Below, in pieces: positions 4,270 through 24,742 of a stretch of DNA of 64,000 nucleotides. Position 1 is the stretch's first letter, and every line of letters starts with the position of its first letter. Where the stretch lies: contig JASBSB010000006.1 in the NCBI GenBank assembly GCA_030149205.1, forward strand, positions 62,001 to 126,000, read 5' to 3'. The stretch comes from Candidatus Heimdallarchaeota archaeon. Its GTDB lineage: Archaea; Asgardarchaeota; Heimdallarchaeia; Heimdallarchaeales; Kariarchaeaceae. Both the position numbers and the translations under genes were made by a program. The notes beneath the pieces were generated by a model. It saw only the letters and a list, made by a program, of their open reading frames with translations. It made no database searches and was not told the DNA's origin.

Positions 4270-7200
4270 TTACAGATATTTTTTGTGGGGTTTAGCTCGC
4301 TTGATAATTTGAAAGACTGGTAGTAAAAACAAGGCAATCAAAATGCCCTCTGTACTAAATGGTATGAATCCACCCCCAGCTGGTTTACTTGAAGTAGATA
4401 TTAAAATTGTCACTTTTGCAGTCCCAAAATTTGTGGTGGTCTCTTTCACTGAATCATACACATTTATAGTAATAGAAACTTTTCCATTTACCACATCTGA
4501 CGAGCTTATATCAAGCTTTACTGAATTGATTCCGGACACTAGAGAGTGATCATTGAAAGTGAGGACATTTCCAACAAATAAATCATAATGATCAACCTTC
4601 ACATCATCTGTTGCGTTAAACTTAACTGTTAATGATAGTTTACCTGAACTATTCATTGTGAATGCTTGATTTGCTTTTGGTTCAAGTATGTTAACTACTG
4701 GTGGGGTTTTATCTAAAGAATACGATACCTTAGGACCCACACCAACCATTACAGCTTGTTGCTGCTTTACTACTGAATATGAGCTCAATAATTGAGTTTG
4801 ATCAACTCCGGGAGGAGTCAGCATATCTACCACATTTGGATCGTAGGGACCATCATCTCCTCCTCCAAGTTTCCAAGTTGATGCTGAGGTCATTCTTTCT
4901 CTAAAAGCAGAGAAATCTTGTGACCCAATTAAAACCACGTAAGCCCAATCTTGTGTTGGTGTTCCTACGATGTTAAGAGGGGCTTTAATTGTAATAGTCT
5001 TTTCTAAGGTATCTGCAATGGCAGAAACCCCAGCAAATGTCGTTTTGTTTTGATAGAGCCCGTATTGCTTAAACCCGTCAGCTCTTACCAAAGTTTCCCA
5101 GGCAAAATCAGGACTAATAAGTACATTTGGATTTTGGTCAGGTTTTGTATTTCCAGACCCGCTGATTCTATTTTTATCAATATAGATCTGAATCAAAGGA
5201 TGAGAAAATCCTGTAGGTGAATTCCAAGGATTTGTGATCTCAGAAAACTTTAATGACGCAACGAAATTATTTTTGTCATACCCGAGTTTGAAATCTAGAA
5301 TATCAAACAATCCATGTCCTGGAGCAAAATCTGGAGCTTTGGGATATGTCCCAAATTCATCTCCTGCTGGATCAGTGGTTGAGTATACAACATTAAAATT
5401 GACACCTGAAAAAGGAACTTGGAAAACAGCTGGCCCATCTTGAGGAGCTATATCTGTTTCAAAACCAGAATAAACTGCTCTGACTGAGAAAAATTCTCCA
5501 GGAGTATAATTGAAGAACTTTAGTGGAATTGACATTTCAAGAACAGAATTATAAGAAGCAAGTCCACCACTCACTACACTTTGTAGAACCCAATCACCGT
5601 TGACCACCTTCCAATAACGAAGGCTAGAATCATTAAACTGAAAGGTAACAGCATAGTTTAATTGAAATCCTAGGGTATTAGAGAAGTTAGTTTTATCTGC
5701 ACCTATAGGGAAAATTGCCCCTGACGAATCTTGAGGATTTTTGAAATAAAGACCCATAAAATCATTTGAAGAGCTACGAGCGCTTGATGACTCGAGGTCA
5801 AATTCATAAAGTAAGTTAGATGTGTTGCTATTTATCCCCGCACGCATATAGTTTATTGCCAGAAATTCAACGGAGGTATCATTTATGAAATATGCTCCAT
5901 CCCATTCTCCAGAAGCTTTAGTTCCATCGATAGAATACCCCGTCATTTTTGTTGGAAAACTGGAACTAATTGATGGTTTCTGTTCTAAAAATAGTAATGG
6001 GTTTATTGCTAATATTTGAGCATTCGTGTAGCCTATATTTACGTAAACATTTCTCAAGAATGATTTAAAGCCCCAATCAAAAACGTAGTCATGTCCAGAG
6101 TTTTGATCTGTTCCATACCACCAGAACCAATCTGAACCTTCAGCTTTGTAAATTGATTCCCATGCAGCGGTGGTGTTATAGGTTGGATTGGCTTTCTCAA
6201 AGTTGACTAAATCAGTCCTGGTTTGAATCAACCAATCCCAAGCGTTATTCTCCTCAGCTTCACCTATCCAAGTGTTCAGGTTTCCACTAATCCAAGAGCC
6301 TGATGCAAGTTTGTTGACCACAGGAAGATTTTTTGTACCAAATGTGTTGATAAATTGGGTTGGGGTTACAGTTTTTAACCATCCCTCTGTTTGGGCTTGT
6401 TCAAGTTTCGCGTAGAGATCATTTCTAAAGATGTTTCCTGTATACTCGTTTTTGCCATCTCCGTTAATATCATAACTGTAATGTTCCCATGCATTTTCTC
6501 CATCCAATGCAACAGTAATAATATAAGGTGTTGTCTTTGCAGGAGCCTTTTGTAATTCATTATAACGAGTTTTAAGCTCATTATAGAAATCTTGAGCTGC
6601 CTTTGCTGGATCCATTCCAGAGTAGGTGAATCCAATTTTATCTGAAAGTGCTGTATCTCGATAAAGGCTTGCAATCTCATATGATTTTGTACCATTTGTT
6701 GCTTTAACTTTGTACATCTGGTATTGTTGTTCTGGGGTTAATGAACTCAGTCCTAAACTATTTTGGAGGACGGTTTGGTCAGATACAAACCATTTAATAC
6801 CAGAAGCATTCATCAAAGGAACCACGTCGTTTGAAACTGCTTCCTCACTTGGCCACATACCAGTTGGTAATGTTCCAAACTTGGTTTTATAATATTGTAC
6901 TGCCTTGACAATTTGTGCGTTTGCATCTGAAACCCAGCCTGTATTTCCTTTGGGAAGGGGAAGGTTTCCATTTCCTGGTGAATCTCTTGCAGAAGTGAGA
7001 TTGATTAATAATGGTAGTATAGGATGGTAGAAGGGAGTTGTAATAATCTCGAGATTCCCCTGATTTTTTGCCAGATTATGTTTGGGTACAACAGATTTCA
7101 AAAGGTCTAATCCCTTCGTTAAAACATAGTCAAGATTACTATGAGAAAATCGACCGGTGCTATTACTAGTTTCAATATCATTGTTCAAAGTTGCGAGAGT

Positions 7201-7794
7201 GAAATCAGCCTTAATGTAATCTGGGTTAATCCATCTTAAGAAGAACATCACCTTTAAATCAAGGAGATCCCCATTCGTGAAATGAGCAATCTTCTCAGCC
7301 ATGGTAGGATATTTGTTTGCCTTTTCCTGAAGATAAGCATATCTTCCAGTTACAAACTGGGGGTTAATGTCGAAGAAAAATTGTAAAACAACAGATTTGT
7401 TTTCGGCACTCATTGCAGTCTCTTGCATTTTTGCAACCTGAATTCTTCTATCGTAAGCAACACCATTTGCGTAATCATCCATTTGAGAGAGAAGAGACGG
7501 TGTGAGGTTAATTGTTGCGTTCACCTTGGGATGATTTATCATTAGGTCTGCCATCCAGGGATATGAATTAGTAGAATGCATGTAGACCCAAGGTTGTTCA
7601 TATATCTTCGTTGTCGGATCCTGATAGTTCGGTTGGTGCTGATGCCAGATCAATGAAAAATAGACCGGTGTAACAGCTTGTTTACTGATCAGAATCGGTT
7701 CCGAAGTAGATCCTGCAATCGATCTATTCGTACTTGATGAGAACAAAAAAATCAGAATGAGGAATATTGGAATCAAATAATTTTTTACTTTCAT
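4270..7794 (-). CDS. apu: Secreted, membrane-anchored GH57 amylopullulanase with glucodextranase-type C-terminal module
   Basis: Predicted cell-surface enzyme that cleaves alpha-1,4 and possibly alpha-1,6 bonds of starch-like glucans. A signal peptide precedes the GH57 barrel. The His-Gln-His-Gln-Pro motif is at residues 51-55, the nucleophile motif Trp-Pro-Ser-Glu ends at Glu317, and the acid/base motif Leu-Asp-Gly-Glu-Asn has Asp431, matching archaeal amylopullulanases. A Trp-rich Trp-Ile-Gly-Glu motif and the Asp-Trp-Phe-Trp-Trp-Tyr-Gly segment follow. After residue 800 comes a glucodextranase-type module ending in an Asp-Pro-Asn-Val-Val-Asp-Met-Leu motif, then a Gly-Gly-Gly-Phe-Ile-Pro linker, a membrane helix and a basic tail. 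ATG 7794 is chosen because a GGAGA motif sits just upstream; a TTG at 7809 is the alternative. It feeds the adjacent ABC transporter. Confidence 0.9.
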   Translation of the reverse strand: MKVKNYLIPIFLILIFLFSSSTNRSIAGSTSEPILISKQAVTPVYFSLIWHQHQPNYQDPTTKIYEQPWVYMHSTNSYPWMADLMINHPKVNATINLTPSLLSQMDDYANGVAYDRRIQVAKMQETAMSAENKSVVLQFFFDINPQFVTGRYAYLQEKANKYPTMAEKIAHFTNGDLLDLKVMFFLRWINPDYIKADFTLATLNNDIETSNSTGRFSHSNLDYVLTKGLDLLKSVVPKHNLAKNQGNLEIITTPFYHPILPLLINLTSARDSPGNGNLPLPKGNTGWVSDANAQIVKAVQYYKTKFGTLPTGMWPSEEAVSNDVVPLMNASGIKWFVSDQTVLQNSLGLSSLTPEQQYQMYKVKATNGTKSYEIASLYRDTALSDKIGFTYSGMDPAKAAQDFYNELKTRYNELQKAPAKTTPYIITVALDGENAWEHYSYDINGDGKNEYTGNIFRNDLYAKLEQAQTEGWLKTVTPTQFINTFGTKNLPVVNKLASGSWISGNLNTWIGEAEENNAWDWLIQTRTDLVNFEKANPTYNTTAAWESIYKAEGSDWFWWYGTDQNSGHDYVFDWGFKSFLRNVYVNIGYTNAQILAINPLLFLEQKPSISSSFPTKMTGYSIDGTKASGEWDGAYFINDTSVEFLAINYMRAGINSNTSNLLYEFDLESSSARSSSNDFMGLYFKNPQDSSGAIFPIGADKTNFSNTLGFQLNYAVTFQFNDSSLRYWKVVNGDWVLQSVVSGGLASYNSVLEMSIPLKFFNYTPGEFFSVRAVYSGFETDIAPQDGPAVFQVPFSGVNFNVVYSTTDPAGDEFGTYPKAPDFAPGHGLFDILDFKLGYDKNNFVASLKFSEITNPWNSPTGFSHPLIQIYIDKNRISGSGNTKPDQNPNVLISPDFAWETLVRADGFKQYGLYQNKTTFAGVSAIADTLEKTITIKAPLNIVGTPTQDWAYVVLIGSQDFSAFRERMTSASTWKLGGGDDGPYDPNVVDMLTPPGVDQTQLLSSYSVVKQQQAVMVGVGPKVSYSLDKTPPVVNILEPKANQAFTMNSSGKLSLTVKFNATDDVKVDHYDLFVGNVLTFNDHSLVSGINSVKLDISSSDVVNGKVSITINVYDSVKETTTNFGTAKVTILISTSSKPAGGGFIPFSTEGILIALFLLPVFQIIKRAKPHKKYL

Positions 7795-7977
7795 TTGGAA
7801 TTTCTCCAAGTATTAGACCCGATACAAATTGTGTAAATTTTAATCTTTAGGAATAACAATAATATTTTTGGATATTAGCACAACTATTTGTTTTTAAGAA
7901 ATTTAACAATTTGCGAAATTTTTCCATTAATTTTAGACACTATATGACAATTTTCCAAAAATTTGTTAGATTCGCAA

Positions 7978-9348
7978 TTAATGAACAGAAAAATCATGGT
8001 TTTCAAGGCTAATACCTGATTTTTCATCAAATAGATGTGTTTGAGCACCAGAAAATCTGAAGTGGATTTCTGAACCAATTTTACGTGGTTTATGTCCAAT
8101 TTCACTTAATCTAACCTCTGAACCGAACAGATTGACAAAGATGATTGTAGAAGAGCCTATTGATTCAGTAAAGGTGACTGTACCTGTGATGGAATTAGAG
8201 TCTTTTATTGACAGGATTTCTACCTGTTCTGGACGAAATCCAATAATAACTTCGTTTCCAATGTGGTTTTCTAATAAATCTGGATTTGGATAATCGGATG
8301 GTATTTTGATGAAAGACCCCTCATTTACACGAATTAAAAGTTGTTTCCCTTGTTTGGTAAGTTCACCTTTAACAAGGTTTGTAGGAGGAGCACCAATAAA
8401 CCCAGCAACGAAGGCAGTTCGAGGTTTGTTATACACCTCGCTTGGTGTCCCTAGCTGTTCAATCACGCCTTTGTTCATAACTGCAATTCTATGCCCTAGG
8501 GTCATAGCTTCAACCTGATCATGGGTCACATAAAGTGTTGTTGTTTGTAACTTTGACTGTAATTCTGCTAATTCAGCTCTGGTTGAATTTCTTAACTTTG
8601 CATCAAGATTAGACAATGGTTCATCCATAAGAAATACCTTGGGGTCTCGAATTATGGCACGACCAACTGCAACCCTCTGTCTCTGACCTCCAGACAATTG
8701 CTTTGGCTTTCTATTTAACAGTTCTTCAATTTCCAATATTTCAGCAGTCTGTTTGACCCGTGTCTCAATCTCTTCAAGTTGGTTAATATAATCATGAATA
8801 CCAGGAATCCCAATCGAAAATTTTAACACAAAATACTCTATATTTTTTCTCAATTCAGGATAAACAATCCAAGCTATAACGAAGGATAATGTTATAGCTG
8901 AGAAGAAGACTACCCCAGGAGATCTTAAGATAAATGAATCTAAGATATAGCCAAACGCATAAAAAACCGAAAAGAGTAAAGTATAAGCCAAGAGTTTTAA
9001 CAAACTAACTATTACCTTTTGGGGGGTTGATAAGGTTAGATTCTTTAAACCGAAGGCTAAATTATCTCTGACTGTCATATGAGGATATAAGGCATATGAT
9101 TGAAACACCATTGCAATATCTCTGTCCTTAGGTGGTAATCTTGTGATATCATCGTCATCAACTGTGATTGTACCTGTGGTTGGTGTCTCTAGACCTGCTA
9201 ACATTCGGAGTGTTGTAGTTTTGCCACATCCTGAGGGCCCAACTAAGACCATGAATTCCTTATCAGTTATTTCTAAATTAAGATTTGACACTGCAGGTTT
9301 GTTGGTGCCAAACTGTTTTGTTATTTCATTAAATTTTACCTTTGCCAA
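7978..9348 (-). CDS. malK: Sugar ABC transporter ATPase (MalK/MsmX type) with hydrophobic insert
   Basis: Energises oligosaccharide uptake with the two permeases upstream. Walker A Gly-Pro-Ser-Gly-Cys-Gly-Lys-Thr is at residues 37-44, the Q-loop Gln at 83, the signature Leu-Ser-Gly-Gly-Gln at 218-222, Walker B Asp242-Glu243 and the switch His276. A TOBE-like regulatory domain fills the C-terminus. The odd feature is residues 104-191: between the Q-loop and the signature, where relatives have a linker of about ten residues, there are two hydrophobic segments (about 112-136 and 143-163) and an amphipathic stretch. Both flanks align with normal MalK, so it is an in-frame insertion, not a frameshift. 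The start is TTG with an AGGTGA motif 7 bases away, 15 bases after the MalG-like gene. Confidence 0.93.
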   Translation of the reverse strand: MAKVKFNEITKQFGTNKPAVSNLNLEITDKEFMVLVGPSGCGKTTTLRMLAGLETPTTGTITVDDDDITRLPPKDRDIAMVFQSYALYPHMTVRDNLAFGLKNLTLSTPQKVIVSLLKLLAYTLLFSVFYAFGYILDSFILRSPGVVFFSAITLSFVIAWIVYPELRKNIEYFVLKFSIGIPGIHDYINQLEEIETRVKQTAEILEIEELLNRKPKQLSGGQRQRVAVGRAIIRDPKVFLMDEPLSNLDAKLRNSTRAELAELQSKLQTTTLYVTHDQVEAMTLGHRIAVMNKGVIEQLGTPSEVYNKPRTAFVAGFIGAPPTNLVKGELTKQGKQLLIRVNEGSFIKIPSDYPNPDLLENHIGNEVIIGFRPEQVEILSIKDSNSITGTVTFTESIGSSTIIFVNLFGSEVRLSEIGHKPRKIGSEIHFRFSGAQTHLFDEKSGISLENHDFSVH

Positions 9349-9363
9349 AATAATTTCACCTTT

Positions 9364-10908
9364 TTATTTGATTCCACCACTGGTTATTCCTCCAGTTAAT
9401 AATCTCTGTAAACTCATAAATACAACCATGATTGGTAAGGCAGCTAATATACTAAAAGCGCTTAACAGTTGGAAGTAAGGAGGGTTATCAGGGGCGCTTG
9501 TGTTCTGATACAGATAGAACATTAATGGTAGAGAGGAAGATGGATTTTTCTCTCCAACAAAGATTTGAGCCAGAGCAAATTCGTTCCAAGCCCCTAAGAA
9601 TGTAAATATTGCAACTGCAACCATCCCAGGTGCTGAAAGTGGAATAGCAATTCTTAAAAACGCGCCTAGATCAGTTGAACCATCAATTAATGCAGCCTCT
9701 TCAAGGTCATAGGGTAAAGTATCAAAATATCCCTTCATCATCCATACATTATAGGCTAATGCGCCAACGAAATAAGCAAGTAGCAAGCCAGATAGTTTGA
9801 ATGTTCCCCCATCAATGTAGAACAGAGGAATAGAGAAGAGATAAATCTCTCGTCCTCCACCAAAAAAGCCGAGGTTTTTCCAAATAATAAACTGAGGAAT
9901 CAGCAGAATAATTCCAGGAAACATTTGAGTTGCAAGAACAAGAAATTTAGAAGTGTTTCTCCCTTTAAACTTGTATCTTGAAATTGCATAAGCAGCTGGA
10001 AGGGATATAAACATACCTCCGAGTGATGTCCCAAATCCTAAAACAAGTGAGATCATGAATGAGCTTGAAAATGAGGAGCTGTTGGGATTGATTATAAAAA
10101 TTACACTAGAATAATTTCTTACGAAGCTTCCCAATGGGTCACTTGGAACTATAGATTGTTTTTGAATGTCAACAGCATTACTCATTGAAAGGATTAATGT
10201 GTACACTATTGGCACCACGGTATAAATAAAAAATAAAATAAGGATCAAAAAAGTAAAAAGGCTGGTTAAAGAGAAGTTTAAATTTTGAAAGAGATTTTTC
10301 CTTGACTTATCTTGAATTTTTCCAACCTGATCTAATTTAAGATTTGACCTATACCTCTTTACCGACAAAACTGTCCCAATCATTGAAATGGAAAAAAGAA
10401 CCCATATATTGAGGTTTAATATTAGCTGAAAGAGTAGATCACGTTCAGAATAGGTAGCTGACATTGGTAGGGGAATACCCACAAACTGCCATGCGTGTGA
10501 ACTTAAGGAATTTAATTCATTCACCAGCCAGTTATTTGGAGTAATTTTATAAGATTCACCTGTCCAAAACGCAAGAAACCAGAGAAAATAACTAATGAGC
10601 ACCATGACCATAGATGGCTTTAACCCCTTACTATAATCCACCTTAAAATAGAAATAAAGAACGGAGATTGAAAAAATACCTCCCATAAGCGTCATTACAA
10701 TTAGATTACTGAGGATTTGGGGAACATATACATCAGTAGGATAATCTCCCCTTGGAAAGAGAGGAGGGGGTGAGGTCCACTGTCCTACAATATAAGTAAC
10801 TCGGTTCCATATCTTTAGCTGAAAATTCCAAAATGCCCACATGAACATCATTGCAGTAAATAAAATTGTTAAAAAGGAAAACAATTCCCCTTTGCTTCTA
10901 TCAGTCAT
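9364..10908 (-). CDS. malG: Sugar ABC transporter permease, MalG type, with N-terminal membrane extension
   Basis: Inner permease of a CUT1-type oligosaccharide importer. The family core occupies about residues 212-514 and includes the EAA loop (Glu-Glu-Ala-Ala-Leu-Ile-Asp-Gly, about 403-410), which docks onto the ATPase, and the typical Phe-Leu-Gly-Ala-Trp-Asn-Glu-Phe motif in a late helix. The first 205 residues are extra: they hold about four predicted membrane helices (10-28, 65-88, 99-116, 159-182) and a long external loop, and they do not resemble the usual MalG N-terminus. Total length of 514 compares with about 280 for the family. It overlaps the upstream malF by 8 bases and has a strong GAGGAGG ribosome-binding site before its ATG. 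Confidence 0.9.
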   Translation of the reverse strand: MTDRSKGELFSFLTILFTAMMFMWAFWNFQLKIWNRVTYIVGQWTSPPPLFPRGDYPTDVYVPQILSNLIVMTLMGGIFSISVLYFYFKVDYSKGLKPSMVMVLISYFLWFLAFWTGESYKITPNNWLVNELNSLSSHAWQFVGIPLPMSATYSERDLLFQLILNLNIWVLFSISMIGTVLSVKRYRSNLKLDQVGKIQDKSRKNLFQNLNFSLTSLFTFLILILFFIYTVVPIVYTLILSMSNAVDIQKQSIVPSDPLGSFVRNYSSVIFIINPNSSSFSSSFMISLVLGFGTSLGGMFISLPAAYAISRYKFKGRNTSKFLVLATQMFPGIILLIPQFIIWKNLGFFGGGREIYLFSIPLFYIDGGTFKLSGLLLAYFVGALAYNVWMMKGYFDTLPYDLEEAALIDGSTDLGAFLRIAIPLSAPGMVAVAIFTFLGAWNEFALAQIFVGEKNPSSSLPLMFYLYQNTSAPDNPPYFQLLSAFSILAALPIMVVFMSLQRLLTGGITSGGIK

Positions 10909-12400
10909 TTAATTCCTCCTCAGGAAAAGTCATTTGGTATGCTTTAGAAAAAAGCACAAGTATAATAAACACCACGAAACTTAATGCAGCTCCTGCGGCA
11001 AATTCTGGGCCACTCCCTAGACCCTGTTGAATTAGATAATAAATATAAGTTATAAATATATCATACCCCTTCCTATTTCCAAGACCAGTTTGATTCTGAG
11101 AGAGAATGTAGAATACATTAAAAAGATTAAAAGTCCATATCATTCCCAATAAGGCAACTGTCCTTAATGTCGGGATTACATTTGGGAAGGTAATATTTCT
11201 AAATTCTCCCCAAGCTGAAGCCCCGTCAATTCTGGCGGCCTCATATAGATCCTGGGGGATTGATTGAAGAGCTGCTAGGAACGACATCATCATAAAAGGG
11301 ATTCCTAGCCAGATATTAGTAAGTATGGCGGCAAGAAAAATGGTTTTAGTTGAATAACCTAATAAGTAGAAGTCTGAGCTGAAAAAGAATTTAGTTTTAA
11401 TATTATAGACCTTCACAACATCTGCTCCAAAAAATGGCATGCCTTTCATTAATGCAGATTGATTGTTAAGTATGGACAGTACTGTCAGAACAATAACCAC
11501 TAACAAGATTAGCGCTTGTTGAACTTTCTTGTTGACAGATCTATTAGATTTGGTGAATACAATCCAACCTATCACCGAAACTGTCAATATTAACAATCCA
11601 GTATCCAAAAACGACAAACGAATTTCAGAACCTGGAACGAATGTCTGAGCGGCTATTCTTCCTAATATACCGTTATCTTGGTTAAAGATGAAATTTCTCC
11701 AAACAAGAGCTGTGATAAATGAAGGTATTGCCCAAGGAAGGATAAAAGTAGCTCTAAAAAAAGTGCGTCCCGTAAATTTCTGGTTTAATAGGACTGCAAG
11801 GAATATCCCAAACAGAACATGGAAAAAGGTGCAAATTGCAGACCAGAGGAATGTATTTAACAGGATTCTAAGGAAATCTCCTATGATGAAGGGACTTGTG
11901 AAGATATTCTTATAGTTCGCAATAGCTAATGTGGTATTACTACCTGATAGAATAATAAAATTTAATCCAAATATTATGAAATAACTCATGAAAGTCATAT
12001 TTAAGAAAATAGCAATCAAAAACCTGTTCAAAAACTTTAGATCTGATAAGATTGAAATACGCTTTAACTGCTTAGTTGTGGTAATAGTTGTGATACTAAG
12101 AGTAATAGCTAGAATTACTGGGAGGAACCCAGCTCCAATTAAACTTGATATAAAGGTAGATAAGTCTACCATGTAGAGATTGTTAAGATCCATAAAATAT
12201 CCTGTGAGGTTTTCAGAAATGGCTATAAGTCCTGGGTTCCTGTAAAAACTCAATAACAGTGCAAATAAGATGGGAATATACACAAACAGGAAAATCAATA
12301 AGAATGAAGGGAAAAGAAAGAGATATGACAATCTTACCCTTCGATCAATATAAAGTGAACTAACAACTCTAGGTGATTGTTCTTTTTCAGATACTGCCAT
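10901..12400 (-). CDS. malF: Sugar ABC transporter permease, MalF type, with two membrane inserts
   Basis: Partner permease of the MalG-like protein. The first helix (about 24-52) and the EAA loop Tyr-Glu-Ala-Ala-Arg-Ile-Asp-Gly-Ala (386-394) are standard. Two segments are additional to the family core. Residues 60-155 add two helices (82-104 and 125-151) in the first periplasmic loop, and residues 263-345 add two more (266-283 and 295-311) between core helices 3 and 4. Length is 499 against about 300. E. coli MalF is also long, but its extra part is a soluble P2 domain. A TATA-like element at 12424-12433 lies 24-33 bases before the ATG and no Shine-Dalgarno sequence is visible, so malF-malG-malK probably form their own leaderless transcript. 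Confidence 0.9.
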   Translation of the reverse strand: MAVSEKEQSPRVVSSLYIDRRVRLSYLFLFPSFLLIFLFVYIPILFALLLSFYRNPGLIAISENLTGYFMDLNNLYMVDLSTFISSLIGAGFLPVILAITLSITTITTTKQLKRISILSDLKFLNRFLIAIFLNMTFMSYFIIFGLNFIILSGSNTTLAIANYKNIFTSPFIIGDFLRILLNTFLWSAICTFFHVLFGIFLAVLLNQKFTGRTFFRATFILPWAIPSFITALVWRNFIFNQDNGILGRIAAQTFVPGSEIRLSFLDTGLLILTVSVIGWIVFTKSNRSVNKKVQQALILLVVIVLTVLSILNNQSALMKGMPFFGADVVKVYNIKTKFFFSSDFYLLGYSTKTIFLAAILTNIWLGIPFMMMSFLAALQSIPQDLYEAARIDGASAWGEFRNITFPNVIPTLRTVALLGMIWTFNLFNVFYILSQNQTGLGNRKGYDIFITYIYYLIQQGLGSGPEFAAGAALSFVVFIILVLFSKAYQMTFPEEELND

Positions 12401-12532: not shown

Positions 12533-14014
12533 TCACTTTTTCTTTGATTTTCTTCTTTTAATGTCTTGAATCACTGGGATACTAACCAACAAAATAGGAA
12601 CCACTATGAATTGAAAATCTCCCGGGTTTATTGTTGATTTAGATGTAGGCGTACCAGTACCTCCACTTACTAAAATGTCGCTCCAAAACGTGGTAACAAC
12701 ATCAATAAATTGACTTAGTGTTTCATTTCCAGCTAAGTAATTATCAAGTTCAGTTCCAAAAACGGTTTCCAACTGAGCCCATTTTGGATCCACGGGATTT
12801 TTATATGCTCGATCTATAATTCCCTTTATAGCTTTAATATAAGTCCAAGCCGGGGAATTCGTCACTGCAGGGTCTTTAAACACAGATTCACGGGCAGGAA
12901 CATGGTAATAACTTATTGCAGCTTCTGCCATGGCATGAGCAGAACTCATAAATCTGGAGAATTTCATGGCTGCTTCAGCAACCGCACCAGTTGCCCTCTT
13001 GGTTATAACGTAAGCATGTCCACCTAAAGGTGCTCCCTCGTGTCCCTGTTCATCATGTGGTAACCTCATTATCCCTAGATTGGAAGCTGATGCCCAGGTT
13101 CTTGAGCCTGGTGCGGATTTATTGAATTCAGGGGCATTCGTTAGAAAGTTCTTTAACTCCCAAGGCCCCTGTTGAATAAATCCAACTTGTCCTGTGGTAA
13201 ACATAGGATTGATTGTACTCCACCCTTGTTGATCCCAAGGAGGAGTATATGGGGCTGTAACCACATCCTTAAGGAAGGTTAAAGCAGTTCTTGATTCTGT
13301 AGAGTTAATATCTATATTAGCAAATGAGACATTGTCATTCTTAAAAAATCGAGCCCCGTGTCCGTAATATATAGGCTGGGCTCCGAAAAACATTCCTTGC
13401 AATGTAAGCCCATAAACGGGTTTACCTTCAGGATTTTTTAACTGCTTATCCCAAATTTGTTTTGTATAGTTAGTGAATTGCGACCAAGTTAACGAGGTAT
13501 TTAGGGTAAACTTCGTTGTATTAATTCCTGCGTTCTCTAATGTATGTTTGTTATAAAACAGGGCGGGGACATCCACAAGTTGAGGCCATCCCCAAATCTG
13601 TTCGGTTCCTGATTTATCAGGGTAAGACACTAACCTCAAGGCATCTGCGATGAAATCTTTCTTATCGGTTGCATTCAGGTAGGGAGTAATTGGTTGAATT
13701 AGTCCCTGTTGGGCAAATTCCACCACCCAATCTCTTGCTGCCCTAAATACTGTAGGTTCCAACTGGGCACTAAATTGTGTCAGATACGTTTCCTTTGCAC
13801 TGAAAAAGCCCTTTGCCTCTGCTTTAACATTTATTGTGGGATTTGCTGTCTCAAATTCCTTAACTAAACGAAGAACACCTGGTTCTTCACTAGAGTTTTC
13901 AGTGTACCAAAATGTAATTTTTACTGTACTCGTTTGTGCGAATGTGCTACTTGGAAGTACAGAAAACATAAACATGAAAATCACTATAATTGGGAGAATT
14001 ATTTTTTTATTCAT
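12533..14014 (-). CDS. malE: Extracellular solute-binding protein, family 1 (maltodextrin type), membrane-anchored
   Basis: Captures oligosaccharides outside the cell for the permeases. An N-terminal signal peptide is followed by the type-I binding-protein fold: Ile-Thr-Phe-Trp-Tyr-Thr-Glu at the start, a Pro-Ala-Leu-Phe-Tyr-Asn-Lys segment, and the Gly-Gln-Val-Gly-Phe-Ile-Gln-Gln-Gly-Pro-Trp motif usual in maltodextrin and trehalose binding proteins. The last 25 residues form a hydrophobic helix with a basic Lys/Arg tail, so the protein is anchored at its C-terminus instead of by a lipidated cysteine. A strong GGAGG site precedes the ATG. The frame overlaps the end of the second binding-protein gene by 8 bases, so the two are translationally coupled. 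Confidence 0.9.
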   Translation of the reverse strand: MNKKIILPIIVIFMFMFSVLPSSTFAQTSTVKITFWYTENSSEEPGVLRLVKEFETANPTINVKAEAKGFFSAKETYLTQFSAQLEPTVFRAARDWVVEFAQQGLIQPITPYLNATDKKDFIADALRLVSYPDKSGTEQIWGWPQLVDVPALFYNKHTLENAGINTTKFTLNTSLTWSQFTNYTKQIWDKQLKNPEGKPVYGLTLQGMFFGAQPIYYGHGARFFKNDNVSFANIDINSTESRTALTFLKDVVTAPYTPPWDQQGWSTINPMFTTGQVGFIQQGPWELKNFLTNAPEFNKSAPGSRTWASASNLGIMRLPHDEQGHEGAPLGGHAYVITKRATGAVAEAAMKFSRFMSSAHAMAEAAISYYHVPARESVFKDPAVTNSPAWTYIKAIKGIIDRAYKNPVDPKWAQLETVFGTELDNYLAGNETLSQFIDVVTTFWSDILVSGGTGTPTSKSTINPGDFQFIVVPILLVSIPVIQDIKRRKSKKK

Positions 14015-15392
14015 TGTTTCGCCTCCTTTTTCTAAGAAGTAATGCTACCGAAAATATTGCAAACAGCCCAGTTATAAATAGAAAACTTGGGCTTGATTTA
14101 GCCACACTATTTAGTGGTGTAAATTCTGGTAGATTCGACCAAGGTGAGCTTGGTGGAACCAACAATCTGAGAGCTATGTCTAAAGAGAGTGTGGTCCTTG
14201 GTGCGTTTTGATTTCGTTGAACAAATTTTGTCATCTGATTATTAAAAACATCGAGAACAGACAACCAAGCTGGGTCATGGGGCAGATCTAAAAATACGTT
14301 CATTGAAGTGTTTGCTACTTTTCCGAAATCAGTTGTAAGATCCAAAAATGATGTATTCACTGGTAAATATGATGCTTTTACCAAATTATCTTGTGTATTT
14401 TTGTTTCTCAACATTGCACTTATGGTTTTAACCAAAGGCATATCAGAGCTTTTTGCTTCAGTTGTAAGAAAAACAGAGTATGTTTCAACTGGAGCTGGAG
14501 CAGGCATTGGATATAATCCTAGATTACTCTTACCTGAAAATACTGTTCCCTTGGAAATATCATTGTATTTCAGTGATGAAGCAATGAGCATAGCAAGGGT
14601 CCCATTTGTCTTAAACAAGGATTCAGAACCACCATTCTCCTGAAGCGCCCAATCAGGTGCTGCTTGCTTGACATTTATTGTTTCATTGATGTTAGTTAAT
14701 GCAGCTAATGATGCATTACTATTCACAGAAAGATGAGCAACATCCACTGTGTTATCTTTGAACAAAGCACCCCCTAAACCATAAAACAGGGATAACATTG
14801 GATCTTGAACACTTTCAAAACCGACACCAAACACTTTTTTCAGAGGGTTGGATTGATCGTTTGATTGTACTGCTGCATCACTAAACTTTTTAATTGTATC
14901 TACACTGACCTTGTTGAGGTTTACTAAATCTTTATTTAGGTAAAGAAACTGAGTTGTCGAAGCAAAACCATATCCATAGAGCTTTACCGTGTTGTTTATG
15001 ATACTAGCAGTAGTTTTAGTGTTAGGAGATACTTCAAAAAAACTTGATCCACGATAAATTGATGGAAACACTCCCGCTTCACTCGAATTTGACACAACTT
15101 TAACAAGATTTCTTGTTGCAAGTTGAGGGAGTAAACTATCTGAAGTTATAAGAATCTTAGGGAGTGTCCCTAAAATTTTCTTTCTTACTAGATCATTTAT
15201 TAGCGAACTCTGTGAAACTGTTGTGATCTTGTAAGATGACCCAAGCGATGACGTCACAAGTGTCCCTAATGATTGGGGTACTGATACTATTATCTCAGTC
15301 TGAGATTGTGCTTGAGTGGGAATAACTGATAAGTTCATCCCAGCAGCTAATAATACTACCAGTACAACTGAAAAAAATAATTTTTGTTTCAT
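14007..15392 (-). CDS. Second, diverged solute-binding-like protein, membrane-anchored
   Basis: Protein of about 460 residues with a signal peptide, a body that looks like a poorly conserved extracellular solute-binding protein, and a C-terminal helix followed by a basic tail. Recognisable marks are the Tyr-Leu-Asn-Lys-Asp-Leu segment, equivalent to the Tyr-Asn-Lys motif of binding proteins, and a Gly-Thr-Leu-Ala-Met-Leu-Ile strand near residue 270. It is translated just before malE, with an 8-base overlap. It could be a second substrate receptor, a chaperone for sugar delivery, or a structural partner of malE. The ATG at 15392 is preferred because an AAGGTGA motif sits five bases upstream; a GTG at 15401 lies within that motif. 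Confidence 0.75.
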   Translation of the reverse strand: MKQKLFFSVVLVVLLAAGMNLSVIPTQAQSQTEIIVSVPQSLGTLVTSSLGSSYKITTVSQSSLINDLVRKKILGTLPKILITSDSLLPQLATRNLVKVVSNSSEAGVFPSIYRGSSFFEVSPNTKTTASIINNTVKLYGYGFASTTQFLYLNKDLVNLNKVSVDTIKKFSDAAVQSNDQSNPLKKVFGVGFESVQDPMLSLFYGLGGALFKDNTVDVAHLSVNSNASLAALTNINETINVKQAAPDWALQENGGSESLFKTNGTLAMLIASSLKYNDISKGTVFSGKSNLGLYPMPAPAPVETYSVFLTTEAKSSDMPLVKTISAMLRNKNTQDNLVKASYLPVNTSFLDLTTDFGKVANTSMNVFLDLPHDPAWLSVLDVFNNQMTKFVQRNQNAPRTTLSLDIALRLLVPPSSPWSNLPEFTPLNSVAKSSPSFLFITGLFAIFSVALLLRKRRRNNE

Positions 15393-15519
15393 TATACTCA
15401 CCTTCGTGTTAAAAAAACATCTAGACTCACTTAAAAAAGTAATCGTTCTTATAACTGTGACCTAGGTGTCTTTTTGGATAAATTTGTAAGTTCAAATTTA
15501 TTTGATAATTTTGGAAAAT

Positions 15520-17505
15520 TTACAGCTCGTAGAGAGTTTTGTAATCCAAAACCATACGATGAGAGGAAAATTTTGGACCAACACTCTCTATTGAGTTTCT
15601 CATTCTTTGAATCCAATTTTCTGGTAGACCTGATTCATTTAACTCATAATATTCAGGAATCACTTTATGTTCTAAAATTTTAAGGAGTGAATCCCAATCC
15701 TGTTGATCTTGTTCTGGAGGACTTAAAGCAGGATCATATTTTCCAATCACCCAGCCATTTTTTTCATTGAATGCTTCGGGCCACCAGCCGTCATAGGTTG
15801 AAAGGTTCAAAACACCATTAATTGATGCTTTCATACCGCTTGTTCCAGATGCCTCACGAGGGACTCTCGGAGTATTTAACCATACATCTACTCCACTGAC
15901 TAAATGTTTTGCTGTTGTCATATCATAATCTGGAACGAATGCTACTCTCCCTAAAAATTCTGGATCCTTTGCGTGATCATAAACCATTTGTAATAGAGCT
16001 TGACCCTCTCTGTCTGCAGGATGAGGTTTTCCTGAGAAAACGATCTGAATTGGTCTGGTTGGATGGGTTACTAATTTTTTAATTCTCTCAATATTCTCGA
16101 AAATAAGTGTAGAACGTTTGTATGTTGCAAATCGTCTTGCAAACCCAATTGTCAATATTTTTGGGTCAAATAATATCCCATAGGGAAGTAGGTTCTCAGG
16201 GTTAATTTCCCTATCTATTTTGGTTGTTACCCTTCTTTTGAAAAATTCCATCATCTCAATTTTTGCCAGATAATGGGTTTCCCAAAGCTTATGGTTGGAT
16301 ATTTTAAATGTATTCCAACTCTCAGGTTTGACATATTCATGTGGATCAATTTGGTCTAAATTTAACAGATGTGCAAGTTCTGTGTTCAAAAACGTTTGAA
16401 TATGTACGCCATTAGTTACAGGTACAATTTTCAAATTTTCTTTTATTAGAAAATCAGTCCAAAGTCTGTTCAATGCGGTCGCGTTCAGCTTACTCACCCC
16501 ATTGACTGTCTTTGCAAGTTTCATGCCTAGAACGGTCATGTTAAATCCCTCTCCATAACCCAAATCATGTACGCCTAATCCCCTAATATCAGAGAACTCT
16601 AAGGGAGATCCTTGGAAATACTTCTTAAATAAAGAATCAACCATATTCGGGTCGAAGACATCATGTCCTGCAGGTACAGGTGTGTGCGTGGTAAATAAAA
16701 TTTTTGATTTTAGGTTTTTGAAAGCTTCTTCTTTTGTTTGGTGTGATTTTATTAGGTGCTTCCATAAAGCGATTCCCCCGAAAGCCGCATGTCCTTCATT
16801 AAAATGATAAACATCAAATTCTAAATCAAGCATATTTATTAGTTCAATGCTTCCAACACCTAGAATATATTCTTGGTGAAGTCTTGTGTTTATATCACCA
16901 CCATAGAGCTGACTTGTTATTGTTCGCTGTTCGTCGGAGTTTTGTTTCAAGTTTGTATCTAATAAATATAAATTCACAGAACCCACTTTAACTAACCAGA
17001 CTGCAATGTAAATTTCAGAACTATAATATGGCAGTTGTAGTATAATTGGAACACCATTAGAATCAGTAACCCGTTGAGTAGGGATAATATCTAAATCTAG
17101 ATTTTGAGATTCTACTTTTTGTTCTCCATTATCATTGACAACTTGATGAAAATAGCCATCTTTGTATAGGAGACCAAAAGCTGTAACATCAACACCTAAG
17201 TCAGAAGAAGCCTTAAGATGATCCCCCGCTAGTACACCTAACCCACCAGAATAAATTGGAAGACTATCATGAATGGCATACTCCATACAAAGGTAAGCAA
17301 TTCGTTTCCCACTTGGTTTAATTCTGACTTTTTGAACATTCAATTCAGATAAATCAAAATTTGTAACTCTTACAAATTCAACAGGATTATGATTTACTTC
17401 TTCCCAGACCTGGGGGTTGGTCTTTTCGAAAATATCCTTTGTCTTGAAATCCCATGACCAGAAATAATTTTCCAAAATACTAAGTTGTTTTTCGAGCTGC
17501 AACAT
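15520..17505 (-). CDS. glgP: Alpha-glucan (glycogen/maltodextrin) phosphorylase, GT35
   Basis: Phosphorolyses alpha-1,4-glucans to glucose 1-phosphate using pyridoxal phosphate. The N-terminal 45 residues match the DUF3417-like cap seen in archaeal and Thermotoga-type phosphorylases. The conserved Gly-Gly-Leu-Gly-Val-Leu-Ala-Gly-Asp-His motif, the Asn-Glu-Gly-His-Ala-Ala-Phe motif and the PLP site Thr-Ser-Gly-Met-Lys (Lys559) are all present. At 661 residues it is shorter than the E. coli type but ends at the point where the core of this subfamily ends, so I see no truncation. A TATA-like element around 17527-17536 is about 27 bases before the ATG, giving a leaderless transcript. It takes the oligosaccharides that the adjacent transporter brings in. 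Confidence 0.92.
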   Translation of the reverse strand: MLQLEKQLSILENYFWSWDFKTKDIFEKTNPQVWEEVNHNPVEFVRVTNFDLSELNVQKVRIKPSGKRIAYLCMEYAIHDSLPIYSGGLGVLAGDHLKASSDLGVDVTAFGLLYKDGYFHQVVNDNGEQKVESQNLDLDIIPTQRVTDSNGVPIILQLPYYSSEIYIAVWLVKVGSVNLYLLDTNLKQNSDEQRTITSQLYGGDINTRLHQEYILGVGSIELINMLDLEFDVYHFNEGHAAFGGIALWKHLIKSHQTKEEAFKNLKSKILFTTHTPVPAGHDVFDPNMVDSLFKKYFQGSPLEFSDIRGLGVHDLGYGEGFNMTVLGMKLAKTVNGVSKLNATALNRLWTDFLIKENLKIVPVTNGVHIQTFLNTELAHLLNLDQIDPHEYVKPESWNTFKISNHKLWETHYLAKIEMMEFFKRRVTTKIDREINPENLLPYGILFDPKILTIGFARRFATYKRSTLIFENIERIKKLVTHPTRPIQIVFSGKPHPADREGQALLQMVYDHAKDPEFLGRVAFVPDYDMTTAKHLVSGVDVWLNTPRVPREASGTSGMKASINGVLNLSTYDGWWPEAFNEKNGWVIGKYDPALSPPEQDQQDWDSLLKILEHKVIPEYYELNESGLPENWIQRMRNSIESVGPKFSSHRMVLDYKTLYEL

Positions 17506-21880: not shown

Positions 21881-22846
21881 GTGATCAATAGATTACATCA
21901 TGATTCTCAGAGCAAAAATACAATTTCTGCATTTAGTGATGCATGGAAATCTCCATTTAAAGGACTTAAATTCCAGTTTTTAGAGTATGAAATATTGAAG
22001 CTAATCATGTATGGAGGCATAAATGAAGTAAGTGAAATAATTTCAATTGTTGAAGGTGAGTTTCAGGATATTAAAAAATCTAAATCACAATTGTATCGGA
22101 TCATTGAAAATTTAGAAACTGAAGGATTGATTTCATCAGAAAAATTGGGAAAGGAAAAAGTACTCAAGATAGAAAATAAAGGAATTCAAGAGTTAGGAAA
22201 TTTATCTAGGTATGTTTTGATTTCTTTGAGAGAAATCCTAATAGATGAAGGAATATGGAATGATATCTATGAAAAAGTTTTGCCTCAAACAGGGTGTCTA
22301 AGAGTAGATAACATTGCCTATTTAGGCCCACAAGCTCACGGTATTGTTCAATTACTTGACAGTTGTAGATATTGTGAATCTCCTAGATATCCCAACGATG
22401 ATTTACCAACCAGTCCAATATTCTTTCAATTACCTTATTCTGACACCACCCTGTCTCTAACAGAGAAAGATAAAATCACAATAATACAAAATCAAAAAAT
22501 CGACGACCTCATGTTGAAAACCAATAGTTTGGATATTGTTCTATCGTTTACCCTTATTTCCAAGTTTAAGGAACGTTCTTTTGAAGAGTTGAAGAGAATT
22601 GTTAAGCCAGAAGGCTTTTTAATATTTGTTGAACCTGTTAAAACAACACCACATGTTGTAATTATGATGTATAATCAGATTCTTATGGCGAATTCATTTG
22701 AGACCTCAGAATTTTGGAGGATAGACACCTTAGATAATACCCTTCCTTCAGTAGAGGAGCTTGAAAACCTATTAATGAATGAATTTACGAAGGTTACAAA
22801 GATAAAAGATTCCTTGTTATCTATTTTTGTCTGTCAAATCACCTAA
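21881..22846 (+). CDS. PadR-like winged-helix regulator fused to a methyltransferase-like domain
   Basis: Protein of 321 residues. Residues about 30-105 form a winged helix of PadR type: Leu-Glu-Tyr-Glu-Ile-Leu-Lys-Leu-Ile, then a Lys-Ser-Gln-Leu-Tyr-Arg-Ile-Ile recognition helix and a Leu-Glu-Thr-Glu-Gly-Leu-Ile wing entry. Residues 140-320 resemble the second half of a class I methyltransferase (Leu-Asp-Ile-Val-Leu-Ser, then Glu-Leu-Lys-Arg-Ile-Val-Lys-Pro-Glu-Gly-Phe-Leu), but no Gly-x-Gly-x-Gly SAM loop is visible. A Cys162-x-x-Cys165 pair with Cys139 might bind metal. I infer a ligand or metal-responsive repressor of the divergent MMPL exporter, based on the paired operators. Start is GTG behind a TATA box. 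The last four bases overlap the convergent SCO gene. Confidence 0.7.
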   Translation: MINRLHHDSQSKNTISAFSDAWKSPFKGLKFQFLEYEILKLIMYGGINEVSEIISIVEGEFQDIKKSKSQLYRIIENLETEGLISSEKLGKEKVLKIENKGIQELGNLSRYVLISLREILIDEGIWNDIYEKVLPQTGCLRVDNIAYLGPQAHGIVQLLDSCRYCESPRYPNDDLPTSPIFFQLPYSDTTLSLTEKDKITIIQNQKIDDLMLKTNSLDIVLSFTLISKFKERSFEELKRIVKPEGFLIFVEPVKTTPHVVIMMYNQILMANSFETSEFWRIDTLDNTLPSVEELENLLMNEFTKVTKIKDSLLSIFVCQIT

Positions 22847-23553
22847 GGTGAGACTGATCTTAAATAATCTATAAAGCCAATCATATCTGAATTTTTCCAA
22901 TCTAAACCATTATAGATCTTTTGAATACTACCTGCTTGGTCTACTACATACACGAGAAATTGATGTGCCCAGAGGCGATGAGTCATATGTGACATGTTTC
23001 CACCATGATTAGGGGTATACTCTGAAGGAATAGTGCCAGCTGTTTTTGTGGTGGTGGTAGTCTGATTGATTGGAAAGAAAACAAAGTTCCAATCCTTAGT
23101 GATTTTATCAATCTGAGTATGATTTCCAAGTAATACATGAAAGTTACTCGGCAAGTTCAATGTCCCCATTGTCTGATTTACATAATTTCGAACAGTTGTC
23201 AGATTATCATAATAATCGAAATCAATCTCAAAAAATGTTAAATCATTTACCTTAGATTTTTTTTGTAAATCAGTGTATACGTTATTAAGCTTGGTTGTAA
23301 TGACTGAACACCCATCAGGACAACTTGCATAAAAAAATGTGACAAGTCGAATAGTTCCATTACTGGAAGCAAAGTTGACAGGTTTGTTATTGATATCCTG
23401 GAGTGTGAAATCCTTAGGCTTCCACAGAAACTGTCTTGGGTCATTGGCTTTTGTAACATCTGCCCATAAGAAACCAGCAGCAACTATCCCCCCTAGAATG
23501 ATTAAACCAATAATTGTACCTTTCACCTTAGGGTTTTCAATTGAAAGACTCAT
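22843..23553 (-). CDS. sco1: SCO1/SenC family copper-delivery protein
   Basis: Membrane-anchored thioredoxin-fold protein, expected to load copper into the CuA centre of cytochrome oxidase subunit II. One N-terminal membrane helix (about 11-30) is followed by the SCO core. The metal site Cys78-x3-Cys82 is present in the Ser-Cys-Pro-Asp-Gly-Cys motif, and the third ligand is the His of Trp-Ala-His-Gln-Phe-Leu-Val-Tyr. A short Met/His-rich stretch (Asn-His-Gly-Gly-Asn-Met-Ser-His-Met) precedes that His and may bind extra copper. The cox genes lie 17 kb away. A TATA-like element (23576-23588) is about 29 bases before the ATG, and a 12-bp palindrome (23565-23576) lies between them. Confidence 0.88.
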   Translation of the reverse strand: MSLSIENPKVKGTIIGLIILGGIVAAGFLWADVTKANDPRQFLWKPKDFTLQDINNKPVNFASSNGTIRLVTFFYASCPDGCSVITTKLNNVYTDLQKKSKVNDLTFFEIDFDYYDNLTTVRNYVNQTMGTLNLPSNFHVLLGNHTQIDKITKDWNFVFFPINQTTTTTKTAGTIPSEYTPNHGGNMSHMTHRLWAHQFLVYVVDQAGSIQKIYNGLDWKNSDMIGFIDYLRSVSP

Positions 23554-23713: not shown

Positions 23714-24742
23714 TCATGGTTCATTTTTCCATAAAAAGTCAACTAATTCAGCAGTTCTGCTTGCATACCCCCACTCATTATCATACCATGCTAGCACCTT
23801 TAGAAGAGTGTTTTCAACCAACATCATACTAGGAAAATCAATAATTGCACTGTGTGGGTTTGTATTGAAATCCACAGAAACAAGAGACCTCCATTCATAG
23901 TCTAAGATACCTTTCATGTAACCATGTGCTGCATCTTCAAACACTTTCTGAACATGATCTTTAGACTCAGCATCCTTTTTCAGTCTGACTGTTAAATCAA
24001 CAAGTGAGACATTAGGAGTGGGTACTCTAATTGAGATTCCATCCATTTTACCCTCTAAGTGAGGCATTATCACACCTATTGTTTTCGCAGCCCCTGTTGT
24101 TGTTGGGACTATTGACATAGCTGCAGATCGGGATCTTCTGAAGTCTTTGTGCTGAGAATCAAGCAACCGCTGATCATTGGTATAAGAATGAACTGTGCTC
24201 ATAGTGCCATGTTCAATTCCAAATTCATCATCCAAGACCTTACATACTGTAGCCAGACAGTTTGTGGTGCATGATGCGTTGGAAATTAAATAATGTTGTT
24301 TAGGATCATAGATTTGCTGATTTACACCAAGAACTATCGTTGCATCCACACCTTTTCCAGGAGCAGATAGCACTACTCGTTTCGCACCAGCTTCTAAGTG
24401 TTTACTCATCAACTCTCGAGTCCTAAAAAACCCTGTTGACTCAATAACATAATCTACTTCCATCTCCTTCCAAGGAAGTTTACTTGGGTCTTTTTCAGAT
24501 AAAACTGTAAATTCATCACCATCAAAAATCAGGTTATTAGTCTCATTGTGAACTTCAACAGAACCATTAAACCTACCATGTACACTATCAAACTCAAACA
24601 GATGTGCAAGCATGTCTGGTGAACTCAGATCATTGATAGCTACAATGTTTACCGGGAGCTTGTGTTCTAAAAACGCTCGTGTAACCAATCTCCCTATTCT
24701 GCCAAACCCGTTTATTGCGACATTAGGTATATCTCGTGCCAT
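23714..24742 (-). CDS. gap: Glyceraldehyde-3-phosphate dehydrogenase, bacterial/eukaryotic type
   Basis: Oxidises glyceraldehyde 3-phosphate to 1,3-bisphosphoglycerate with NAD in lower glycolysis. The dinucleotide loop Asn-Gly-Phe-Gly-Arg-Ile-Gly is at residues 11-17, Asn37-Asp38 is the NAD-selective position, the nucleophile is Cys158 in Ser-Asn-Ala-Ser-Cys-Thr-Thr-Asn-Cys, and His185 is its partner. The C-terminal Trp-Tyr-Asp-Asn-Glu-Trp-Gly-Tyr is intact. At 342 residues this is the class I enzyme usual in bacteria and eukaryotes, not the class II enzyme of most archaea. A TATA box at 24766-24773 is about 27 bases before the ATG, giving a leaderless mRNA. It sits among glucan-use genes. 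Confidence 0.95.
   Translation of the reverse strand: MARDIPNVAINGFGRIGRLVTRAFLEHKLPVNIVAINDLSSPDMLAHLFEFDSVHGRFNGSVEVHNETNNLIFDGDEFTVLSEKDPSKLPWKEMEVDYVIESTGFFRTRELMSKHLEAGAKRVVLSAPGKGVDATIVLGVNQQIYDPKQHYLISNASCTTNCLATVCKVLDDEFGIEHGTMSTVHSYTNDQRLLDSQHKDFRRSRSAAMSIVPTTTGAAKTIGVIMPHLEGKMDGISIRVPTPNVSLVDLTVRLKKDAESKDHVQKVFEDAAHGYMKGILDYEWRSLVSVDFNTNPHSAIIDFPSMMLVENTLLKVLAWYDNEWGYASRTAELVDFLWKNEP

Follow-up and report, generated by a model that had tools for sequence, protein, structure and literature searches.

Background

In type I ABC importers, the ATPase is regarded as a soluble motor that touches the permease mainly through coupling helices, and a peripheral ATPase devoid of membrane segments is typical of, if not strictly defining for, the CUT1 ATPases. 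Insertions that act as functional elements within the ABC ATPase domain are known from the ABC-F arm, the helix-loop-helix of ABCE1, UvrA and Rad50/SMC; these are soluble and do not belong to transporter ATPases. The helical subdomain of the ATPase receives the coupling helix and rearranges strongly during the ATP cycle (PMC3150292). In MsmX, mutation of R104 in the alpha3-alpha4 loop and of E110 in alpha4 weakened transport, for which a role in NBD–TMD contact was proposed by the authors, who noted that neither residue lies directly at the interface; some MalK-like ATPases serve several transporters (PMC7658222).

The ATPase described here is encoded in an Asgard archaeal window of 64,000 nucleotides, the whole stretch of DNA that was analyzed. 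It has the NBD, OB/TOBE domain, catalytic motifs, fold and MalE/F/G-like operon in common with MalK, UgpC and MsmX, but differs from them by an 83-residue insertion. The two membrane segments predicted in it by hydropathy, in which it departs from the peripheral type and from the soluble insertions listed above, make it a variant CUT1 ATPase rather than a non-member.

The ATPase gene and its insertion

The gene (7978..9348, minus strand) encodes a MalK/UgpC-type ABC ATPase of 456 aa with a TTG start. Its product exceeded the Pfam cut-offs for ABC_tran, OB_MalK (31.2 bits) and TOBE_2 (24.9 bits), the last two marking a C-terminal OB/TOBE regulatory domain at residues 319-440 (8029..8394, minus strand). 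Against the NCBIfam models, it just passed the cut-off for the UgpC subfamily (NF008653; 435.7 bits, cut-off 432) and failed that for the E. coli-type MalK equivalog (NF008233; 339.2 bits, cut-off 568), which places it by model score as a MalK-like ATPase of the UgpC subfamily, outside the MalK equivalog.

The catalytic motifs were complete, as a preliminary description of the locus had claimed, with Walker A (GPSGCGKT) at residues 37-44, Q83 in the Q-loop, the LSGGQ signature at 218-222 (8683..8697, minus strand), Walker B (FLMDE) at 239-243 and H276 in the H-loop. In alignment A2, these motifs were invariant or nearly so, LSGGQ being invariant. Outside the insert, the AlphaFold2 model had the fold of MalK, with a TM-score of up to 0.92, to 2it1 and 4tqu. 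The ATP cycle would stay conventional, and ATP-driven sugar uptake by the transporter is predicted.

The insertion occupied residues 104-191 (8776..9039, minus strand) in the alpha3-alpha4 loop of the helical subdomain, between the Q-loop and LSGGQ. The preliminary description had placed it at these residues, that is at bases 9039-8776 of the minus-strand gene, and within a helical subdomain with normal MalK flanks. Both points were borne out, as solved MalK-type ATPases aligned to residues 1-102 and 192-443, with 89 residues in the hairpin ATPase against 6 in the solved MalK 1v43, a net insertion of 83 residues. The distance from AFGL to LSGGQ was likewise 120, compared with 37 in those canonical relatives for which it was measurable. 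A hairpin rooted in this loop would come out beside the permease.

Hydrophobicity, charge and predicted structure of the hairpin

The two hydrophobic segments and the amphipathic stretch reported earlier for the insert were recovered by hydropathy and AlphaFold2. Helix 1, residues 108-139 (8932..9027, minus strand), would comprise a cytosolic stalk and the first membrane segment (KD 2.03, octanol -10.4 kcal/mol), in which Lys118 and Asp137 flank a short hydrophobic core. Helix 2, residues 144-162 (8863..8919, minus strand), would form the second (KD 2.17, octanol -11.1 kcal/mol), followed by a helical amphipathic return stalk at residues 164-177 (8818..8859, minus strand). The latter contains R167, which lies just past helix 2 and was invariant in all seven homologues (column R70 of alignment A4), an alignment in which the insert had few invariant residues.

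Two hydrophobic 19-residue windows were present in each of the seven homologues, with KD values of 1.65-2.49 and octanol values of -7.6 to -14.1 kcal/mol, and the hydrophobicity of these segments equaled that of the adjacent permease helices in all seven. Among 47 hairpin-less relatives, the top 19-mer reached a KD of 1.53 (median 1.15). Summed over the seven sequences, the net charge was +23 in the flank leading into helix 1 and +11 in that following helix 2, with -3 in the turn between them; this is the positive-inside pattern expected of a hairpin with both ends cytoplasmic.

The AlphaFold2 model had a mean pLDDT of 91.6, with values of 68-85 in the insert, the input alignment consisting of the 47 relatives that lack the hairpin. 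Its fold was that of a normal MalK, and the insert consisted of two helices, of 32 and 19 residues, joined by a short turn and followed by the amphipathic stalk. A soluble domain, named in the preliminary description as the outcome that would speak against a membrane insert, did not appear; the helices were long and hydrophobic, not packed into a compact soluble domain. Judging from their lengths, the 32 residues of helix 1 would suffice for a 10-residue stalk and a membrane span, and the 14-residue helix 164-177 would serve as the return stalk. Given the hydropathy and the model, the hairpin is very likely inserted in the membrane.

Distribution and conservation

The hairpin insertion was found in seven of the 228 genomes of the phylum, representing five families and six genera. 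A profile built from three sequences had led to the four other genomes; when the phylum was searched again with all seven sequences, no further intact hairpin ATPase was found, and two weak extra matches (G103 and G074) were discarded for their stop codons. The preliminary description had considered that the insert might be missing from relatives as a result of misassembly; in fact, one of the seven genomes (G087) is a single contig, another (G007) belongs to the same genus as the window genome and has a hairpin ATPase at 59% overall identity, and a third (G033) comes from another family of the same order. The hairpin profile had no match among 115 genomes of the Thermococcus phylum or among nine genomes with relatives. 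MalK-like ATPases as such occurred in 169 of the 228 genomes at 1e-50, so that those with the hairpin are in the minority. An actin gene was also detected in the window genome (445 bits), which agrees, together with an archaeal gene content, with an Asgard origin.

Identity of the insert to that of the window was 22-42%, compared with 63-82% for the flanking ATPase. Such a drift in sequence with hydrophobicity kept is as in lipid-facing helices. That seven divergent genomes keep the insertion in open frame, at the identical site and with two hydrophobic segments is more than would be expected by chance.

Other insertions at the same loop

When the insert was left out of the tree, the hairpin ATPases of all seven genomes formed one clade (bootstrap 98, SH-aLRT 92), and the insertion-bearing ATPases of cyanobacteria, which we take to be GgtA-like, formed a separate one (100/99). 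These cyanobacterial MalK-like ATPases likewise carry an insertion at the alpha3-alpha4 loop that ends in a short amphipathic stretch, with the conserved motif ENLLVGxTRxLPKGLRY (loci L163-L204). Their insertions are hydrophilic, with a maximum KD of 0.97 among those read, whereas the hairpin insert is hydrophobic. The cyanobacterial insertion profile matched 135 of 386 sampled cyanobacterial genomes, and no adjacent permease genes were seen at the five loci inspected. Homology between the two insertions was considered, as their amphipathic tails look alike by eye, and was rejected: no similarity was detected in profile-against-shuffle comparisons (p 0.12-0.75), the TRxLPKGLRY part of the motif was absent from the hairpin insert, and the careful tree separated the clades. 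An AU test on a quick tree did not reject a joint clade of hairpin and cyanobacterial ATPases.

A further insertion at this loop was observed in another Asgard genome (L146:1841-3922, on G084:C18), where a 693-aa MalK-like ATPase has about 150 residues, charged and internally repeated, at the loop and is extended at its C-terminus by a TPR-like region. It shares phylum and site with the hairpin but is charged and coiled, with no hydrophobic segment. The occurrence of both hydrophilic and hairpin insertions at one loop points to an insertion hot spot, one that has received a membrane hairpin on at least one occasion.

No match to the insert profile was found in any PDB chain and no Pfam family matched the insert; no MalK-type ATPase with membrane segments was found in the open-access literature, and the main text of a survey of Asgard archaea transporters makes no mention of MalK. 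The earlier statement that no MalK of this kind had been described thus held for the solved structures, Pfam and the open-access literature found. It can be refined in two respects: hydrophilic insertions occur at this site in cyanobacterial and other MalKs, and the partner permeases have additional membrane segments as well. The hairpin MalK is a real and conserved, apparently undescribed variant of the CUT1 ATPases, which suggests that Asgard archaea, the archaeal group closest to eukaryotes, elaborated their sugar importers in a way unrecorded in the literature searched.

The operon and its permeases

The operon consisted of two binding-protein genes followed by genes for a MalF-like permease, a MalG-like permease and the ATPase, all on the minus strand. 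One of the two binding-protein genes (14007..15401) had no Pfam or NCBIfam match but aligned with the second binding protein of three homologous operons, and probably encodes a divergent sugar-binding protein; the other (12533..14014) encodes a MalE-like one (SBP_bac_8, SBP_bac_1). Adjoining them on the same strand were an alpha-glucan phosphorylase (15520..17505; TIGR02094, 708.7 bits) and a probably secreted GH57 glucanase with a glucodextranase C-terminal module (4270..7809; Glyco_hydro_57, Glucodextran_C). Genes for GH57, glucodextranase-module or GH77 proteins were close to all four homologous operons inspected over longer stretches.

Each window permease had ten membrane segments by hydropathy, compared with six in the core. 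The MalG-like permease (514 aa; 9364..10908, minus strand; BPD_transp_1 at residues 299-505) carried four extra segments in an N-terminal extension, residues 1-205 (10294..10908, minus strand). Profile A3 of this extension matched exactly the same seven of 228 genomes as the MalK hairpin, and neither was seen without the other. In the structure prediction for MalG, most core helices had high pLDDT and the extension helices low confidence. The MalF-like permease (499 aa; 10901..12400, minus strand; BPD_transp_1) had, between core helices, one additional membrane hairpin at about residues 83-146 and another at about 264-311, both of which were also present in the other four of the five MalF homologues aligned.

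In a paralogous sugar importer at L147:4999-10519 (G042:C98), both permeases were very large, one of 677 aa having 11 hydrophobic segments and the other, of 780 aa, 16; the ATPase, of 385 aa, was ordinary. Extra permease helices hence do not in general require a hairpin.

Probable membrane anchoring and alternative explanations

The explanation that we find probable is that of an Asgard CUT1 importer for maltodextrin in which the hairpin holds the ATPase in the membrane next to its cognate permease. In its favor are the conserved hydrophobicity and charge pattern, the single clade, the pairing with the extended MalG and the glucan enzymes that neighbor the operon. The chain would leave helix alpha3 near the site of the coupling helix, climb through the stalk, span the bilayer and turn outside, then span back and re-enter helix alpha4 through the amphipathic stalk, thus crossing the membrane in-out-in. 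With less certainty, the hairpin may pack against the added permease helices, most likely those of MalG. The ATPase would then be a permanently membrane-anchored, dedicated subunit and not an exchangeable soluble one, in a complex of about 24 membrane helices (10+10+2x2) by count of hydropathy segments; the MalFGK2 complex of E. coli has 14. Hairpin and extended MalG may, however, co-occur because they were inherited together in one operon and not because they touch. The G042 system, with its extra permease helices and no MalK insert, counts against the anchor, as do the pLDDT of 68-85 in an insert modeled from hairpin-less relatives and the short core of helix 1 between Lys118 and Asp137. If anchoring is correct, a motor so dedicated and permanently attached would offer a natural experiment on what sets the pairing of ATPase and permease, and on whether mechanical work inside the bilayer is within the reach of the helical subdomain.

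A more active role is also conceivable. The nucleotide-binding subunit would be an integral membrane protein whose ATP-driven rotation reaches the added helices of the permeases through the bilayer hairpin; such a second coupling path at the level of the lipid is, in our view, a speculative proposal. That the hairpin is a working part in this sense appears unlikely: it would move in the membrane as the helical subdomain rotates, and thereby drive the extra helices of the permeases or lock them, as a second route beside the coupling helices of the EAA type. Its root in the helical subdomain, strongly rearranged during the cycle (PMC3150292), and its strict pairing with the extra MalG helices agree with such a role, but fast evolution and few invariant residues are more to be expected of an anchor than of a precise lever.

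It is improbable that the hydrophobic helices, instead of spanning the bilayer, lie at its interface or are buried in contact with the stalks of the permease or with some other protein. The interruption of helix 1 by K118 and D137 and the hydrophilic or amphipathic insertions of several other MalKs at the same loop would be consistent with this, but all seven homologues combine two membrane-grade segments with the positive-inside pattern, the segments equal neighboring permease helices in hydrophobicity, and two helices joined by a short turn suit a spanning hairpin.

Added contacts serve to regulate ATPases of the MalK type, a general precedent by which the insertion could be the place where a membrane-bound regulator docks, and not a permease anchor. 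Such a docking site is quite improbable, as the homologous operons had no recurrent extra membrane gene apart from permeases and binding proteins, and the permease extensions were the constant partner. An artefact, whether a chimeric assembly, a degraded gene or an intein-like element, can be dismissed almost entirely: seven independent genomes, one of them a single contig, speak against misassembly, the frame is open with all catalytic motifs retained, and the size, sequence and conservation of the insert led to the rejection of an intein or mobile insertion, 83 residues being, to our knowledge, too short for a known intein.

Elsewhere in the window, 24880-27543 codes for a protein of 887 aa that has a glucodextranase module at its C-terminus, with genes for SCO1/SenC (22843-23553) and GAPDH (23714-24742) nearby.
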